A stretch of 64,000 nt of DNA from Gemmatimonas groenlandica. Lineage in GTDB: Bacteria; Gemmatimonadota; Gemmatimonadetes; Gemmatimonadales; Gemmatimonadaceae. Made by a program: the position numbers and the translations under genes. The notes below the pieces were generated by a model. The model was not told the origin of the DNA. It saw nothing but the letters and a program-made list of their open reading frames with translations, and made no database searches. Positions within the stretch are counted from its first letter, which is position 1. Each line of letters opens with the position of its first letter. Location: positions 3,906,001 through 3,970,000 of the forward strand of contig NZ_CP053085.1 in NCBI RefSeq assembly GCF_013004105.1. Direction: 5' to 3'. Of the stretch, positions 6,247 to 54,483 are shown piece by piece.

Positions 6247-8988
6247 TTGCCGCCGATGGCCGCAGAGAGACTCGAGGTATCGGCGTCAGTCCCGATCGTG
6301 GATCGCCACCAGGCAGTGCTGAACGCCATGGACGAGGGGTTCTGTATCGTCGAGCTGCTGTACGACGATACGGGGCGCGCGGTCGATCATCGGATCCTCG
6401 AAGCGAATGCGGCTTTCGAACGACACACCGGTGTGCGCAATCCCGTGGGCAAGTGCGCGAGTGAACTGGTTCCTGGTGGCGAGCAGTGGTTCAATGATCT
6501 GTATGGACGTGTCGCGGCGACGGGTGTGCAGGAGCGAACGGAGACCGGATCGGAGGCAATGGGTCGCTGGTTTCAAATCAGCGTGACGCGCGTCGGGCTC
6601 GCGGCGAATCACACGGTCGCAGTTGTCTTCATGGATATCAGCGAGCGGAAGCAGGCCGATTTTGCGCTGCAGCGTCGCAGCGCGCAGTTCGAGACCTTGT
6701 TGAATGAGGCCCCGCTCGGCGTATTCCTCATCGACGCCGATTTTCGGGTGCGCGCCATGAACCCCGCAGCGCAGTCGACGTTCGAGGGGATTGCGAGTGT
6801 CATCGGTCGCGATTTCGACGAGGTCATGCACATTGTCTGGCCGCCCGAACGTGCGGACGGCTTCGTGAAGATCTTTCGGCACACACTGGAAACCGGCGAG
6901 CCGTTCGCGACACCCCACGAAACGGAAATGCGCGCCGACCGCAGGGTGACCGAATACTACGCGTGGCAGATCAACCGCATCTCGCTGCCCGAGGGCGGCT
7001 TCGGCGTGGTGTGCTATTTCAGCGACACCTCGGCGAGCGTGTTCGCGCAACGGCGCCTCGCCGATTCCGAGGCGCAGTATCGACAGCTCTTCCAGTCCGC
7101 GCCGATCGCCATGTTCGCCTGCGACGCGTCGGGCGTATTGCTGTCGTACAATGCACTGGCGGTCGAGGTCTGGGGTCGGCAACCGGAGCACGGTCAGGAC
7201 AGGTATGACGGCGCCATCCGGCTTTGGCGGCCGGATGGAACCGCGTTGCTCGACGCGAACAATCCGATGGTCGCGGTCCTCAGCGGCGACGCGCCGGTGC
7301 GCAACCTGCATGTGCTTATCGAGCGGCCCGATGGCTCGCGGCTCCCGGTGTCGCTCAGTATCGCGGCGCAGTCGAACGCGAACGGTGAGACAACGGGTGC
7401 GATCGGTTCGTTCATCGACATCAGCGATCGCATTCGAGCCGACGAAGCGCGCGCGGAGTCGCAGCGCCAACTCGAATTCGTGATGGACTCGATGCCGCAG
7501 AAGATCTTCACGGCATCACCGGAGGGAGAGATCGGGTATCTCAACCCGCAATGGATGGAGTACACGGGATTGCCGGCCGCCGATATACGAGACTGGAGCG
7601 GCTCCGCACTGATTCACCCCGACGACTTGTCGATGACGATAAGCATCTGGCAACGGGATCTCCCGAATGGCACGCCCATTCACATCGAGCATCGCTTCCG
7701 GTGCGCTGACGGAACCTATCGTTGGCATATCAGCCGGGCGATCCCGATGCGTGACACCAGCGGGGAGCTGATCATGTGGGTCGGCTCCAGCACAGATATG
7801 CATGCGCTGCGCGAAGCCGCGATCGACTCGCAGCGTGCCGGCGGTGTATTAGCCGAAGCGGACCGCCATAAGAACGAGTTTCTGGCGACCCTTGCCCACG
7901 AGCTGCGCAATCCACTCGCGCCGATTCGCAACGCGCTCGATATACTGACGCAGGGTGAGCCCACTCCTGGTGTCGTACAGTTCGCATCGGGCATCATCGA
8001 ACGGCAAACGACACAGATGATCCGTCTGGTTGATGAGCTACTCGACGTGAGTCGCATCAGCCGTGGCACCATCGCCTTGAAGCGTGCCACCGTGGATCTG
8101 ACCATGGTGATTGAACAGGCGATCGAAACGGCGCGTCCAGCCATCGAACGCGCGGGGCATGAGATACAGGTCTCGTTTGCCGTGGAGCCGTTGTACATCG
8201 ATGCCGATGCGACTCGGCTCATTCAGGTTTTCGGGAATCTGCTCGATAACGCGGGCAAGTTTACGCCGTCTGGTGGACGCATCGTGATCACGACGCAGCG
8301 ACAGGGCGATGAGGCGGTGATTCAGGTGCACGACAACGGCGTTGGCATCCCGACGTCGATGCTCGGCGCCGTCTTCGAACTGTTTCGTCAGGTGGACCAC
8401 ACCCTCGAGCGCGCCCGCGGCGGACTCGGGATCGGCCTCAACTTGGTACAACGACTCGTTGAGCTGCATGGCGGGTCGGTCGATGCCATGAGCGAGGGAC
8501 CGGGAACGGGGAGCACGTTCACCGTGCGGCTGCCGATCATGGTCGACGCGTTCACACCGACGCCCATCCGAGAGGTTGCATCCGAACAGCTGGATCGCGC
8601 CGCGGGCCGGCGGGTGCTGGTGGTGGATGACAATCATGACTCCGCCAATTCGTTGGCCCTCGCGTTGCAGCTTCGCGGGAACGAATCGCGAGTGGCGTTC
8701 GACGGCATGGAGGCGATCGAGGTGGCTGAACTGTTCCGCCCTGAGTTGATCGTCCTGGACCTTGAAATGCCGAAGCTCAACGGCTATGACGCAGCACGAC
8801 GTATTCGTGCGGAGCCGTGGGGACGTTCCATCGCGCTGGTCGCCCTGACCGGGTTGGGGCAAGATGACGACCGACGACGATCGCGCGATGCCGGCTTCGT
8901 GGCGCATTTGGTCAAGCCCGTCGACCACGCGGAGCTGGCGCTGCTGCTGGCGCGGCTGCCGCAGGTCGACGCCACCGCATCGGCGTAG
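6247..8988 (+). CDS. Multi-PAS hybrid sensor histidine kinase with C-terminal receiver
   Basis: A 913-residue protein without membrane segments, so a cytoplasmic sensor. Order: four PAS-type domains (about res 15-130, 140-260, 265-385, 390-525), a HisKA dimerisation domain with phospho-acceptor His in TLAHELRNPLAP (res about 551), an HATPase domain with N box GNLLDNAGKF, G1 DNGVGIP and G2 GGLGIGLNL, and a CheY-like receiver starting at RVLVVDDNHDS with phospho-Asp in VLDLEMP (res about 838). TTG 6247 and ATG 6256 are both possible starts; AGGA at 6240-6243 is 12 bp before the ATG. No response regulator gene is adjacent, so the fused receiver probably relays elsewhere. The stimulus is not evident. 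Confidence 0.93.
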   Translation: MPPMAAERLEVSASVPIVDRHQAVLNAMDEGFCIVELLYDDTGRAVDHRILEANAAFERHTGVRNPVGKCASELVPGGEQWFNDLYGRVAATGVQERTETGSEAMGRWFQISVTRVGLAANHTVAVVFMDISERKQADFALQRRSAQFETLLNEAPLGVFLIDADFRVRAMNPAAQSTFEGIASVIGRDFDEVMHIVWPPERADGFVKIFRHTLETGEPFATPHETEMRADRRVTEYYAWQINRISLPEGGFGVVCYFSDTSASVFAQRRLADSEAQYRQLFQSAPIAMFACDASGVLLSYNALAVEVWGRQPEHGQDRYDGAIRLWRPDGTALLDANNPMVAVLSGDAPVRNLHVLIERPDGSRLPVSLSIAAQSNANGETTGAIGSFIDISDRIRADEARAESQRQLEFVMDSMPQKIFTASPEGEIGYLNPQWMEYTGLPAADIRDWSGSALIHPDDLSMTISIWQRDLPNGTPIHIEHRFRCADGTYRWHISRAIPMRDTSGELIMWVGSSTDMHALREAAIDSQRAGGVLAEADRHKNEFLATLAHELRNPLAPIRNALDILTQGEPTPGVVQFASGIIERQTTQMIRLVDELLDVSRISRGTIALKRATVDLTMVIEQAIETARPAIERAGHEIQVSFAVEPLYIDADATRLIQVFGNLLDNAGKFTPSGGRIVITTQRQGDEAVIQVHDNGVGIPTSMLGAVFELFRQVDHTLERARGGLGIGLNLVQRLVELHGGSVDAMSEGPGTGSTFTVRLPIMVDAFTPTPIREVASEQLDRAAGRRVLVVDDNHDSANSLALALQLRGNESRVAFDGMEAIEVAELFRPELIVLDLEMPKLNGYDAARRIRAEPWGRSIALVALTGLGQDDDRRRSRDAGFVAHLVKPVDHAELALLLARLPQVDATASA

Positions 8989-8993
8989 CGCAC

Positions 8994-9165
8994 GCGGAGC
9001 AGATCGGTGTTGTTACGGCGCGATCCGCGGTCTCCGTGATCTGGCTGTTTGCGATCTCTGCGTGACACAATCGGTGGCGTACCGGCACGATCGCAACAGC
9101 TGGAACACGGATCACACCGATTGCACAGAAGCAACACAGATAGGCAAACGGCGCGGGCCGCGCAT
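8994..9165 (+). repeat. Intergenic repeat, isolated copy A
   Basis: Begins with GCGGAGCAGATCGGTG and continues to AACACGGATCACACCGATTG, CAACACAGATAGGCAAACGG and GCGCG. The same succession occurs three more times, in the same direction, at 10.17-10.75 kb. This copy is the only thing seen between the histidine kinase and the degraded fragment that follows. Confidence 0.8.
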
Positions 9166-9206
9166 ACCGCGGGTCGCGCGAGCTGCCGCTGGTCGCCGTA
9201 CGGGCA

Positions 9207-9443
9207 CTTGGGAGACTGAAAATCGAAGGTTGCTGCGGTTGACTCGCGTCGTAGCCGAATCGTGAAGCGTCCAGCGTCGCCCTCGCTGCTTCCGGCGGTC
9301 GTGACCTTGATCCGTATCGGGCGGTCACGCGGCATGCCGCCAAGGAGATAGCGGCCGGTCGCGTCGGCTCGCCGCGCGACTGCCAGTACGCCAGCGACGC
9401 CGGTGCCGGCCCGCTCGTAGCGTAACGTCGATGCTACTGCGGT
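9207..9443 (-). pseudogene. Decayed C-terminal fragment of a carboxypeptidase-regulatory-like domain protein
   Basis: Reading the minus strand from just after an in-frame stop at 9444-9446 gives about 79 residues that look like real protein: TLRYERAGTGVAGVLAVARR, then DATGRYLLGGMPRDRPI, then GRFTIRLRRESTAATFDF. The DATGRYLLGGMP turn resembles the D-x-x-GRY-x-L-x-G-x-P signature of carboxypeptidase regulatory-like domains found in secreted proteins. No start codon, signal peptide or natural stop bounds it; downstream the frame runs into repeat copy A. It is therefore read as a remnant. It could instead be chance coding of antisense sequence, but the motif match makes that less likely. Confidence 0.45.
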
Positions 9444-10108
9444 CTACTCCGGCGATACCACGTGCCAGTGAGCGCCTTGATCCCAAGCACCACGATCGAC
9501 ACCCCAAGGCCAATCCACGGACCACTGAGCGGCAGCAGAAGAATCGGCAGGAATGTCCAGTACTGGAACGGATACACGTCCAGGCTCTCGTCGCCGAGCG
9601 CAGCGAGAACGCGGTGAACCGGATAGCTCTCACCGCGATTGTCGCTGGAGATCGATCGTATCGACCGCGTGCCATCACTTTGAATCGAAACCAAGTCGAC
9701 GTCCATTCGGCGTCCCGGCGGACGCAAACGGCCAATCAACAGGAATGATCGCTTCGTTGTCTGCTCAGCAAATCGCTGGACGGTGATCCATCGGTGGTAT
9801 CGGCCGAGATTCTCCATTCCGGCCCGGACCTCGGCCGTTCGCGCTGCAAGCACGACGGTGTCGTTCACGAGCACCGACGCCTCAGCGGACTGGCTGACCT
9901 GCGAGCGGTCCTTCGAGTGGGGCAGTGCATCGACCATGCGAACGGACTGTCCAGCGAACTCAACTGGCAACGACAGCATCGGCTCGGACTCGAACGCGAC
10001 ACGCCCCTTTGCATTGAAGGAGGCCTCGCGCAATTGCTGCGTCACCGACACGGCGGATACGCCAAGCAGCACCAGCATCGCCCACGTACTCGTCGAGAAT
10101 TGTCGCAT
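9434..10108 (-). CDS. Small predicted membrane protein of unknown function
   Basis: A 224-residue protein starting at ATG 10106-10108, with GGGAG about 9 bp upstream. The frame stays open further upstream but runs into repeats, so the inner ATG is preferred. An N-terminal hydrophobic segment (TWAMLVLLGVSAVSV) and a C-terminal segment (FLPILLLPLSGPWIGLGVSIVV) flank a hydrophilic middle of about 140 residues. The layout resembles DUF3592-type proteins, whose middle often has V-x-Y or Y-x-V-E patterns (here RGESYPVHRVLAALGD), but I cannot confirm the family. It is the only gene in a repeat-rich region, with copies of the same repeat on both sides in the same direction. Confidence 0.6.
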   Translation of the reverse strand: MRQFSTSTWAMLVLLGVSAVSVTQQLREASFNAKGRVAFESEPMLSLPVEFAGQSVRMVDALPHSKDRSQVSQSAEASVLVNDTVVLAARTAEVRAGMENLGRYHRWITVQRFAEQTTKRSFLLIGRLRPPGRRMDVDLVSIQSDGTRSIRSISSDNRGESYPVHRVLAALGDESLDVYPFQYWTFLPILLLPLSGPWIGLGVSIVVLGIKALTGTWYRRSRPQ

Positions 10109-10159
10109 AAGTTCGCTCCCGTTGTTCAATACAAGCATGTGCGAATCCGTCACTACAGC

Positions 10160-10750
10160 CTCGACCTTTGTCGTACACCCGGAGCAGATCCGTGCCGTGC
10201 CCGCGAAAATCCGCGTTGAGGTTGTTCCGGCTGTTAGCGATCGGTCCATGACACAACCGGTGGCGAATCGGTACGATCGCAACAGCTGGAACACGGATCA
10301 CACCGATCACACAGAATCAACACAGATAAGCAAACGGCGCGAGGGCATCCATCGCACCTCGACCGGTGGTCGCCGGTGTTGTTCAACAAAAAATGATGGG
10401 CCGTCGTGCCAGCGACGACCTTTGTCACACACGCGGAGCAGATCCGTGCTGTTCCCGCGAAAATCCGCGGTAAGGCTGCTTCCGGTCTGTCCGTGACACG
10501 ACCGGTGGTGAATCGGACAGATCGCAACGGCCGGAACACGGATCACATCGATTACACAGAATCAACACAGATAAGCAAACGGCGCGAGTGCCTCTTTCGC
10601 ACCTCGAGCGGAGCTCGCCCGCGTTGTTCAATCAAAAAATGCCGGGCCGTCGTGCCAGCGACCTTTGTCGCACTCGCGAAGCAGATCCGCGCTGCGCCCG
10701 CGAAAATCCGCGGTAAGGCTGTTCCGGCTGTGAGCGATCCAGCCACCACG
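10160..10750 (+). repeat. Direct-repeat array, copies B-D (about 245-bp unit)
   Basis: The anchor GAGCAGATCCGTGC recurs near 10181, 10435 and 10678 (slightly diverged in the last), spacings 254 and 243 bp. Each unit continues with CCGCGAAAATCCGCG, GTTCCGGCTGT-like sequence, ACCGGTGGYGAATCGG, AACACGGATCACA, CAACACAGATAAGCAAACGG and a block ending in GCCGTCGTGCCAGCGAC with CCTTTGTC. Within a unit ATCCGTG..GTTCC and GGAACACGGAT are inverted relative to each other, so each copy can fold. The last copy is truncated. No coding content is supported. Confidence 0.85.
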
Positions 10751-50995: not shown

Positions 50996-52771
50996 ATGAA
51001 ACAGCCGGACGAGCGCGATGTCGCCGCACGGAACAGCGAGCGCGACGTCAGCGAAACCGGATTCGCGGCCCTCGGACTCGACCCCCGCATTGCCTCAGCG
51101 CTTGCTGCGCTAGGCTACGAAGAACCGACACCTGTTCAGCGTGCCGCTATTCCGCCACTGCTGGAAGGACGTGATGTATTGGCCCAGGCGGCCACCGGTA
51201 CCGGCAAGACCGCGGCGTTCGCGCTGCCGTTGCTGAGCCGAGTGAATACGAGCGCGAAGGGCGCCGAGCGCACGTCCGCGCTCATCCTTGTGCCAACGCG
51301 CGAACTCGCCATGCAAGTGGCGGAAGCCGTCCACCGCTACGGCAAGCCGATGGGCGTGAGCGCGCTGGCCGTCTACGGCGGCTCCTCGATGGAGATGCAG
51401 GTCCGCGCCCTCAAGCGCGGCGTGGACGTCGTGATCGCGACGCCGGGACGTGCGCTCGATCATATCCGTCGTCACACGCTGCAAATGACGTCGCTCAAGA
51501 CCGTCGTGCTGGACGAGGCCGACGAGATGCTCGACATGGGCTTCGCGGAAGATCTCGAGGCGATTCTCGAGGCCACGCCGAAGTCGCGTCAGACGGCGTT
51601 GTTTTCGGCCACGCTCCCGCCGCGCATCGCCAGCATCGCCAAGCGTCAGCTGCGCGATCCCGTGCTCGTCACGATCGATCGCGAGGTCGTACCCGACGGC
51701 GAAGCTGCCCGCGTGCGTCAGGTCGCCTACATCGTGCCGCGCGCCCACAAGATGACGGCCCTCGCGCGCGTGCTCGACATCGAGCAGCCCACGAGTGCGA
51801 TCGTGTTCTGCCGTACGCGCACTGAAGTGGACGAGCTCAGTGAAACGCTGATGGCGCGTGGTCTGCGCGCCGACGCGCTGCACGGTGGATTGAGCCAGGA
51901 TCAGCGCGATCGCGTGATGACGAAGTTCCGCACGAAGAAGACCGACTTGCTCATCGCGACAGATGTCGCGGCGCGTGGTCTCGACGTGAAGCACGTGTCG
52001 CACGTGGTGAACTTCGACGTGCCGGCCGACGCCGAGTCGTACGTGCACCGCATCGGCCGCACGGGTCGGGCCGGTCGCGAGGGTGTCGCGATCACGCTAG
52101 CCGAGCCGCGCGAACATCGGTTGCTGCGCAATATCGAACGCATGACGAGTCAGCGGATCGAGATCGCGCAGGTGCCGACGGTCGACGATCTTCGCGCGCA
52201 TCGGTTGGAGTTGGTACGGACGACGCTGCGCGAGACGATCATGGAAGGCGGTCTCGACAAGTTCCGCGGCATCGTGGAGTCGTTGGCTGGTGAGTTCGAC
52301 GTGATGGATATCGCCGCCGCCGCCGTGAAGCTGTTCGATTCGAACGACGAGACGGACGAGCCGGATATTCCGGCCGTGCAGCCGCGCACGGACGATCGCG
52401 GCTCGCGCGACAACAGCCGTGGCCGTGAGGGTGCGCGCGACAGCGCACGTGAAGGTGGCCGTCCGAGCCGCGGTGGCGAAGAGGAAGCACCTCGCGGCGC
52501 CAAGGCCGCCAAGCGTTCGAAGCCGGAATGGAGCGTAGCGCGGTTGTGGGTCGGTGCCGGTCGCAAGCTCAAGATGCGTCCGGGCGATCTCGTCGGCGCG
52601 ATCGCGAACGAGGTCGGGATCGATGCTAGCGTGATCGGCGCGATTCAGATTGCCGACGGATACAGCACGGTCGAGGTTCCTGAGGAAATCGCCGAGGATA
52701 TCATCACGGCGCTGCGGAACACGACGATCAAGGGCAAGAAGGTGTTGGTGCGTCGCGATCGGATGCGCTAG
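50996..52771 (+). CDS. DEAD-box RNA helicase with DbpA-like RNA-binding domain (DeaD/CsdA-like)
   Basis: A 591-residue helicase starting at ATG 50996, with AAAGGAG about 9 bp upstream. RecA1: LGYEEPTPVQRAAIPPLLEG, AATGTGKT (Lys71), PTRELAMQ, DEADEMLD (DEAD 173-176), SAT. RecA2: AIVFCRTRTEVDELSE, TDVAARGLDV, HRIGRTGRAGREG. A charged linker (res about 460-510, RGREGARDSAREGGRPSRG) leads to a DbpA/CsdA RNA-binding domain (SVARLWVGAGRKLKMRPGDL through VPEEIAEDIITALR), which identifies it as DeaD-like rather than RhlE-like. DeaD helicases act in ribosome assembly and cold adaptation. It is the second DEAD-box gene in this window. Confidence 0.95.
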   Translation: MKQPDERDVAARNSERDVSETGFAALGLDPRIASALAALGYEEPTPVQRAAIPPLLEGRDVLAQAATGTGKTAAFALPLLSRVNTSAKGAERTSALILVPTRELAMQVAEAVHRYGKPMGVSALAVYGGSSMEMQVRALKRGVDVVIATPGRALDHIRRHTLQMTSLKTVVLDEADEMLDMGFAEDLEAILEATPKSRQTALFSATLPPRIASIAKRQLRDPVLVTIDREVVPDGEAARVRQVAYIVPRAHKMTALARVLDIEQPTSAIVFCRTRTEVDELSETLMARGLRADALHGGLSQDQRDRVMTKFRTKKTDLLIATDVAARGLDVKHVSHVVNFDVPADAESYVHRIGRTGRAGREGVAITLAEPREHRLLRNIERMTSQRIEIAQVPTVDDLRAHRLELVRTTLRETIMEGGLDKFRGIVESLAGEFDVMDIAAAAVKLFDSNDETDEPDIPAVQPRTDDRGSRDNSRGREGARDSAREGGRPSRGGEEEAPRGAKAAKRSKPEWSVARLWVGAGRKLKMRPGDLVGAIANEVGIDASVIGAIQIADGYSTVEVPEEIAEDIITALRNTTIKGKKVLVRRDRMR

Positions 52772-52790
52772 CGCACGTCGGCCGAAACTG

Positions 52791-52898
52791 CCAGAACACG
52801 GAGACCACGGATTTTTACGGAACCAACACAGATAGGCAACGAGCGCGTCTTGCTTATCTGTGGCCGTTTCGGTGCGATCCGTGGTCTCCGTGTTCTGG
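52791..52898. repeat. Long hairpin repeat after the DeaD-like gene
   Basis: Perfect 22-bp outer arms at 52791-52812 and 52877-52898 (reading AACACGGAGACCACGGAT inside the left arm) and an inner pair CACAGATAGGCAA / TTGCTTATCTGTG matching at 12 of 13 positions. The left half resembles the AACACGGATCACACCGAT..CACAGATAAGCAAACG text of the 9-10.7 kb repeats. Confidence 0.85.
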
Positions 52899-52943
52899 CC
52901 GTTGCTGTTTCATTTGTAGTTGCTGTTCGCCCGAGCAACCCAC

Positions 52944-53042
52944 CTATTTCCCGATGCAGAACTCGAGGAATACCCGGTCCAACACATTCTCGGTTTCGAC
53001 AATTCCGACGAGATCGGACAGGGACTCGCTCGCCGAGTAGCG
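52944..53042 (-). pseudogene. mnmE: Remnant of the 3-prime end of mnmE (trmE)
   Basis: The minus strand reads, up to a TAG at 52944-52946, ASESLSDLVGIVETENVLDR then VFLEFCIGK. MnmE proteins end in a conserved ED-L-L-x-x-I/V-F-x-x-FCIGK tail whose Cys acts in tRNA wobble-uridine modification. Here about 32 residues match, and then similarity stops; the rest of the gene is not in the window. No start codon or ribosome site is present. It is therefore read as a displaced or duplicated gene end. It lies between the hairpin repeat and the terminator before the NDH-2 gene. Confidence 0.7.
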
Positions 53043-53063
53043 ATGCACTGCAGAAACGTAGTT

Positions 53064-53101
53064 GAGAGGCCGGCCAACGAGCGATCGATGGTCGGCCTCT
53101 C
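53064..53101. terminator. Hairpin terminator before the NADH dehydrogenase stop
   Basis: GAGAGGCCGGCCA / TGGTCGGCCTCTC, a 13-bp stem with one mismatch (CCGGCC against GGTCGG) and a 12-nt loop. It lies 5 bp beyond the NDH-2 stop (minus strand) and 290 bp beyond the helicase stop. T-rich tracts are short, so efficiency is uncertain. Confidence 0.55.
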
Positions 53102-53106
53102 TTACG

Positions 53107-54483
53107 CTACAACTTCGGTGGCATCGATCCCGCTTCCGCGCGCGCGAGCTCGCGGTCGCGGCTGGTGTTCAGCAAGCGGTGCGCGGTGGTGCCGGTGATC
53201 AGTCGCACGCCGCGCTGATACGTGATGTACTGAAAAGCCCACTGTACGAACACGGTGATGCGATTGCGGAATCCGGCGAGATACAGGATGTGAATGAAGA
53301 GCCAGGCGAGCCACGCGATGTTGCCCTGCAGCTTCACGGCACCGATGGAGGCAACGGCGCGATGTCGGCCGATCGTGGCCAGGTCGCCCTTGTTGAAATA
53401 CGCGAAGGCGGTGCGCGACGTGCCGCGCAGGTCGTGCAGAATGGCCTTCGCTGCGTGCGCGCCCATCTGATTGGCGGCGGGTGCCACGGCCGGCACCGGC
53501 GTGCCGGCATCGGTGAGCACGGAGGCGATATCCCCGATGGCGAAGACATGCGGGTCGTTCGGCAACGAGAGATCGGGGGACACCACCACGCGCCCAACGC
53601 GATCGAGTGGAGCCCCGAGCTGCTTGCCGAGTGGCGACGCCTGATTGCCGGCGCCCCAGAATACGGTGTGCGCGAAGATGCGTTCACCCGACGCTACGGT
53701 CACGCCGGCGTCGTCGACGCTGGTGACCGCCGTGTTGGTCCGCACATCCACTCCCAGTTCGCGCAGGTCGCGCTCGGCGCGTGCACTGAGCGCTTCGGGG
53801 AACTGTGGCAGCAGTCGCGGGCCCGCTTCCAGCAACACGACGCGGGCGGAAGCGGGATCGATGCGCCGGAAGTCGTGCTTCATGGCTTTGCGCGTGATCT
53901 CGGGGATCATGCCCGCCAGCTCCACGCCGGTCGGCCCACCACCCACGATCACGAATGTCAGCAGCGCTTCGCGCTGACCGGCAGCGCTGGAGCGTTCGGC
54001 CGCTTCGAAGCTGAGCAGAAAGCGTCGTCGCATTTCGAGCGCGTCTTCGATGCTCTTGAGGCCCGGCGCGTTGCCCTCCCACTCCGGATGGCCGAAGTAG
54101 GCGTGTCGGGCGCCGCTCGCCACGATGAGGTAATCCCATGCGACGATGCTGCTGCCGCCGTCGAGGGTCAGCGTGTGCTGCGGCACATCGATACGGTCCA
54201 CCTCCGCCATGATCACTGTGGCGTTCGGCTGATCGCGCAGCATCCAGCGGATCGGCACGGTGATGTCGGCCGGGTTGAGGACCGCCATGGCCACCTGATA
54301 CAGGAGTGGCTGGAACAGGTGGTGATTCGTCCGGTCGATGAGCGTGATGCGCACATCGGCCGTGGCCAGCGTGCGAGCGGCGGTGAGTCCTGCAAAACCG
54401 CCACCGACGATGACCACATGTGGTCGAGGGTCGGTGGCGTGCATGCTGGTCACGCGCGTACTGGTGTTCGGTTCAGCCTTCAC
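53107..54483 (-). CDS. Type II NADH dehydrogenase (NDH-2-like), FAD-dependent
   Basis: A 458-residue membrane-associated flavoprotein that transfers electrons from NADH to quinone without proton pumping. FAD-binding PHVVIVGGGFAGLTAARTLA lies near the N-terminus; the NADH-binding FVIVGGGPTGVELAGMIPEI is in the middle, and VFAIGDIASVL is the C-terminal FAD-contact motif. An amphipathic C-terminal region (ITVFVQWAFQYITYQRGVRL) may anchor the protein to the membrane. Starts at 54483 or at the inner ATG 54442-54444 are both possible; the second begins 8 residues before the FAD motif and is closer to the family norm. No other respiratory-chain gene adjoins it. Confidence 0.94.
   Translation of the reverse strand: MKAEPNTSTRVTSMHATDPRPHVVIVGGGFAGLTAARTLATADVRITLIDRTNHHLFQPLLYQVAMAVLNPADITVPIRWMLRDQPNATVIMAEVDRIDVPQHTLTLDGGSSIVAWDYLIVASGARHAYFGHPEWEGNAPGLKSIEDALEMRRRFLLSFEAAERSSAAGQREALLTFVIVGGGPTGVELAGMIPEITRKAMKHDFRRIDPASARVVLLEAGPRLLPQFPEALSARAERDLRELGVDVRTNTAVTSVDDAGVTVASGERIFAHTVFWGAGNQASPLGKQLGAPLDRVGRVVVSPDLSLPNDPHVFAIGDIASVLTDAGTPVPAVAPAANQMGAHAAKAILHDLRGTSRTAFAYFNKGDLATIGRHRAVASIGAVKLQGNIAWLAWLFIHILYLAGFRNRITVFVQWAFQYITYQRGVRLITGTTAHRLLNTSRDRELARAEAGSMPPKL

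Follow-up and report, generated by a model that had tools for sequence, protein, structure and literature searches.

The last 114 bases of an mnmE gene lie between two convergent genes in the Gemmatimonas groenlandica chromosome. They probably arose when the 3' end of the resident mnmE was duplicated, together with the palindrome downstream of it, into the gap between the two genes in inverted orientation, and have been without function and evolving neutrally since. The stray end would thus be a small, old and apparently non-functional duplication. The genome (G000) is a single contig (C1) of 5,179,092 bases (5.18 Mb), and the window, the whole stretch of DNA analyzed here, covers 64,000 nucleotides of it (C1:3906001-3970000). 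Positions without a contig name are window positions, and handles such as G011 denote related genomes. The features around the stray end are listed in Table 1.

Table 1. Features in the vicinity of the stray mnmE end, in window positions
Feature	Position	Strand	Remarks
DEAD-box RNA helicase (DeaD/CsdA type), convergent neighbor	50996..52771	+	Domains DEAD, Helicase_C, DbpA, DeaD_dimer
Palindrome of ~120 bp from a dispersed repeat family	52782..52927, core arms 52786-52839 / 52850-52903	.	Near-perfect hairpin
Linker, stray stop codon to palindrome	52928..52943	-	Resembles the linker after mnmE in G014, by eye only
Displaced mnmE 3' end, 37 codons + TAG	52944..53057	-	VSAVHRYSASESLSDLVGIVETENVLDRVFLEFCIGK, then stop; 83% DNA identity to own mnmE 3' end; Pfam MnmE_helical 185-211
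Hairpin beyond the stray end	53064..53101, arms 53064-53080 / 53085-53101	.	Similar to the GC-rich terminator that follows the helicase in G015 and G017 (judged by eye; may be convergent)
FAD/NAD(P) oxidoreductase (NDH-2-like), other-side neighbor	53107..54483	-	Pyr_redox_2

Identity and source of the displaced gene end

The minus strand of positions 52944-53042 translates as RYSASESLSDLVGIVETENVLDRVFLEFCIGK, followed by the stop codon. A first-pass annotation, made from the sequence, had described this segment as an mnmE tail with no gene before it, and the tail is real. Its length of about 32 codons was an underestimate: alignment adds five more codons of homology (VSAVH...), up to 53057. 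The stray end terminates in FCIGK and matches profile positions 185-211 of 211 of the Pfam MnmE_helical domain (E 2e-4). As would be expected of 27 residues, this match does not reach the whole-domain cut-off; the annotation's caveat that the tail might be absent from the MnmE profile does not apply. It has the C-terminal helical-domain sequence of MnmE, ending in C-x-GK, and with its 37 codons includes neither the N-terminal nor the GTPase domain of the complete protein. The homology breaks off abruptly at 53057, with no coding mnmE sequence upstream, and is followed by a hairpin and then by the end of the oxidoreductase gene. In the other direction, past the stray stop codon, the homologous block runs on into the palindrome. 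No known RNA families were found in 52400-53300.

The intact counterpart, which the annotation had proposed to locate and compare, is a 470-codon open frame on the plus strand, opposite to the stray end and 266 kb away from it, with its end at about C1:3693207. It is the only intact mnmE in the genome. A whole-genome search with the tail matched the tail itself and the C-terminus of this protein (81% at the amino acid level, E 1e-11, C1:3693112-3693204, plus strand), with no third tail and no other mnmE fragment. Among about 30 same-genus mnmE genes, the genome's own is the closest to the stray end (83.3% DNA identity), followed by those of G028 (80.7%) and G015 (78.9%). A tree of the 114 bases groups the stray end with the own gene and that of G028, although the tree is weak and its support (90/94) a rough value. 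A foreign donor was rejected on the same comparison, with six ambiguous third-position sites leaving room for a sister species. A misassembly is unlikely because copy and parent differ at 17% of the sites in a single-contig genome.

The annotation had also pointed to SGI1-type elements, in which case the displaced gene end would be left over from the integration of an island, by a tyrosine integrase, at the 18-bp 3' end of mnmE. SGI1 occupies the final 18 bp of trmE/thdF and is delimited by 18-bp direct repeats (PMC3285670). The stray end does finish with the 18 bp that such elements use (TTCTGCATCGGGAAATAG; one mismatch to the intact end), and the genes located 3' of the helicase vary. However, the two 18-bp ends, 266 kb apart, are inverted rather than direct repeats, and no third 18-mer with three or fewer mismatches is present in the surrounding 400 kb. 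Nor is the homology confined to the 18 bp: it covers 114 bp of the gene and, on the other side, reaches into the palindrome. A search of the genome for Phage_integrase proteins found just XerC, XerD and IntI, the integrase of an integron, none of them suitable. Phage and plasmid records, rejected as a source as well, gave distant mnmE matches and no close one. Moreover, the gene next to the intact mnmE is the same in G000 and in 10 congeners (G004, G011, G015, G020, G021, G024, G025, G027, G028 and G029, which are all those whose fetched sequence reaches this gene), and none of these 11 genomes has an island at the mnmE 3' end. A scar of this type is extremely improbable. In this genome, a detached mnmE end is not a sign of an SGI1-type island, and a tempting false lead is thereby cleared.

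Drift and age of the copy

The stray end and the own gene differ at 19 positions. With eight relatives as the reference for polarity, 12 of them are changes in the stray copy and a single one is a change in the gene; six are ambiguous. The 12 copy-specific substitutions are distributed over codon positions 1, 2 and 3 as 6/2/4, and all eight at positions 1 and 2 are located at sites that are identical in the own gene and in the eight relatives. In comparison, functional mnmE genes differ nearly only at third positions, with values of 1/0/8 between the own gene and that of G028, and 1/0/11 between the own gene and that of G015 (Fisher p of 0.024 and 0.009, respectively, for the contrast with the copy). 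This pattern argues that the copy is most likely free of coding constraint and decaying.

The copy-specific divergence is about 0.105 per site (12 changes in 114 sites), roughly half the third-position difference between the own gene and that of G028 (8 of 37 codons). The substitutions therefore suggest that the duplication may be about as old as the split from G028, the nearest relative. No second short mnmE end was seen among 60 relatives, several of which have incomplete genomes.

The place of insertion

A counterpart of the locus is found in G011, the helicase of which is 94-96% identical. The helicase and the oxidoreductase are convergent there too, with their stop codons about 9 bp apart and no mnmE end between them. 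The annotation's idea that the displaced end marks an old duplication agrees with this empty place, as it does with the intact gene elsewhere and the drift of the copy. Alternatively, a complete second mnmE, acquired or duplicated, could have stood here and lost all but its final 114 bp through deletion. Erosion from the 5' side would leave a fragment of this kind, and the copy has drifted free of constraint. Against such a relic, no relative has a possible parent gene at this place, the genome contains no other piece of mnmE, and the gap in G011 is only about 9 bp. We consider this origin unlikely.

The two mnmE ends are mutually inverted, and the segment between them has a palindrome at either end, as might be expected if these 266 kb had been inverted and an inverted copy of the gene end left at the far breakpoint. 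However, G021, also a single contig, keeps mnmE and the helicase in the same order and orientation as G000, about 253 kb apart. The neighbors of mnmE are conserved, and the helicase of G011 adjoins the oxidoreductase as in G000, so that a second inversion would be needed to restore the order. An inversion is very improbable on this evidence.

The upstream side of the helicase is syntenic in most relatives. On its 3' side, the gene content changes in nearly every one of them. A GC-rich hairpin and then a hydroxyacid-dehydrogenase-like gene are located there in G015 and G017, and an amidase-like gene in G014, G024 and, by sequence likeness, G025 and G027 (both genes named by eye). The presence of different genes among close relatives marks the 3' side of the helicase as a place of frequent change, and other rearrangements could thus have brought the stray end here.

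In six congeners (G004, G006, G009, G013, G018 and G029), an integron integrase gene is positioned directly 3' of the orthologous helicase; that of G004 was confirmed by TIGR02249. In the present genome, the same position holds the mnmE end instead, and the chromosomal integron is elsewhere (C1:4055001-4075000), outside the window and 105 kb from the stray end. Its IntI (TIGR02249) is at 8604-9671 of that segment, and is followed by at least four attC-like repeats of ~128 bp, at 10607, 12794, 17181 and 19829.

The palindrome family and a probable route of copying

Gene-end pseudogenes produced by a small ectopic duplication are one parallel, being likewise incomplete and drifted copies of a host gene end that lie at an unrelated site while the parent is intact. 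The stray end differs in being joined to a palindrome, the family of which also sits beyond the parent gene. The palindrome beside the stray end has an RNA folding energy of -86.9 kcal/mol (z -9.0). This genome has 14 copies by a strict pattern and about 25 by a looser one. Copies are also present in G014, G015, G017 and G024 and, by similarity, in G011, G020, G025, G027 and G028. Most of the sampled copies lie tens of bp beyond the stop codon of a gene, with open reading frames called by a simple script. Such a palindrome also lies 28 bp past the stop codon of the intact mnmE. Overall, a recognizable palindrome follows the mnmE 3' end within about 30-70 bp in G000, G015, G020, G024 and G025, with linkers in the other four longer than that in G000; it is degenerate in G028, and there is none in G011. 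The same family beside both copy and parent links the donor and the copy.

We infer that one event produced the copy and that the palindrome took part in it. The simplest and favored route would be ectopic copying, by template switching or repair, primed in the palindromes that lie close to each of the two gene ends. In this scheme, a strand that broke or stalled in a palindrome after the helicase would pair with the one after mnmE, copy back into the mnmE end for about 130 bases, and then rejoin. Copying of this kind would start in the repeat and end at a chance point inside mnmE, which would explain the inverted orientation as well as the different ends of the insert, one in the repeat and the other at a random position in the gene. 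On the other hand, copy and palindrome may have arrived separately, because the copy's palindrome fits that of the parent at 0.83 when both are read in the same direction and at 0.87 when one is reversed, and another member of the family is just as close (0.87). Palindromes can flip, and the reversed fit does not decide on a joint move. The upper end of the insert has no clear signature: pairs of GAAAC and GTCGGCC flank it and could be taken for a target duplication of the MITE type, but they are indistinguishable from short words expected by chance.

REP/REPIN and MITE elements are likewise short palindromes that are dispersed over gene 3' ends and differ among relatives, and the present family shares their extragenic location near gene 3' ends. 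Its members differ in being single hairpins of about 120 bp with CAACRG-type ends. A RAYT-driven REPIN was rejected, as the Y1 (IS200-like) transposase PF01797 is absent from the genome while several control genomes were positive. Integron attC sites, which are palindromes of 60-140 bp after gene ends, are another likeness. A simple script, rather than a published attC finder, found no RYYYAAC/GTTRRRY core pair at the stray copy or at 13 fetched palindrome loci, and the same script did detect core sites at the true integron of the genome; the palindrome family is also different in sequence from the attC-like repeats of that integron. An integron cassette was rejected on these grounds. A literature search on Gemmatimonas palindromes found nothing under the terms searched.

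Transposition of a palindrome element carrying flanking host DNA (3'-end transduction) would account for an insert that consists of one palindrome and the adjacent host sequence, and the presence of the palindrome at the mnmE 3' end does differ between relatives. However, the genome lacks a RAYT transposase, no target duplication is established, and no second case of carried DNA was found, which leaves this route quite unlikely. A broader proposal, that the Gemmatimonas palindrome family copies adjacent host DNA to new places, either by such transduction or by a palindrome-primed template switch, and so seeds gene ends around the chromosome, is unlikely as well. The one lead left by this analysis is the palindrome family, through the part that it may play in moving host DNA. 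Had the gene end been carried by the palindrome, this locus would offer a legible example of host sequence moved by a small bacterial repeat, with donor, copy and empty counterpart all known.

Several smaller observations concern the palindromes themselves. On both sides they carry CAACRG-like hexamers in variable runs, those of one side complementary to those of the other, which gives the impression of ends that expand and contract. In the one pair of close palindromes that was looked at, the gene between them is a hydrolase-like open reading frame (by eye). Just downstream of mnmE in G020 (C138:14500-19000, positions 1998-2557 of that segment), four tandem copies follow one another about every 136 bp. 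Within the window, three direct repeats of ~133 bp at 9023, 10209 and 10454 (9023-10586), near small unassigned frames, resemble half copies of the palindrome family.
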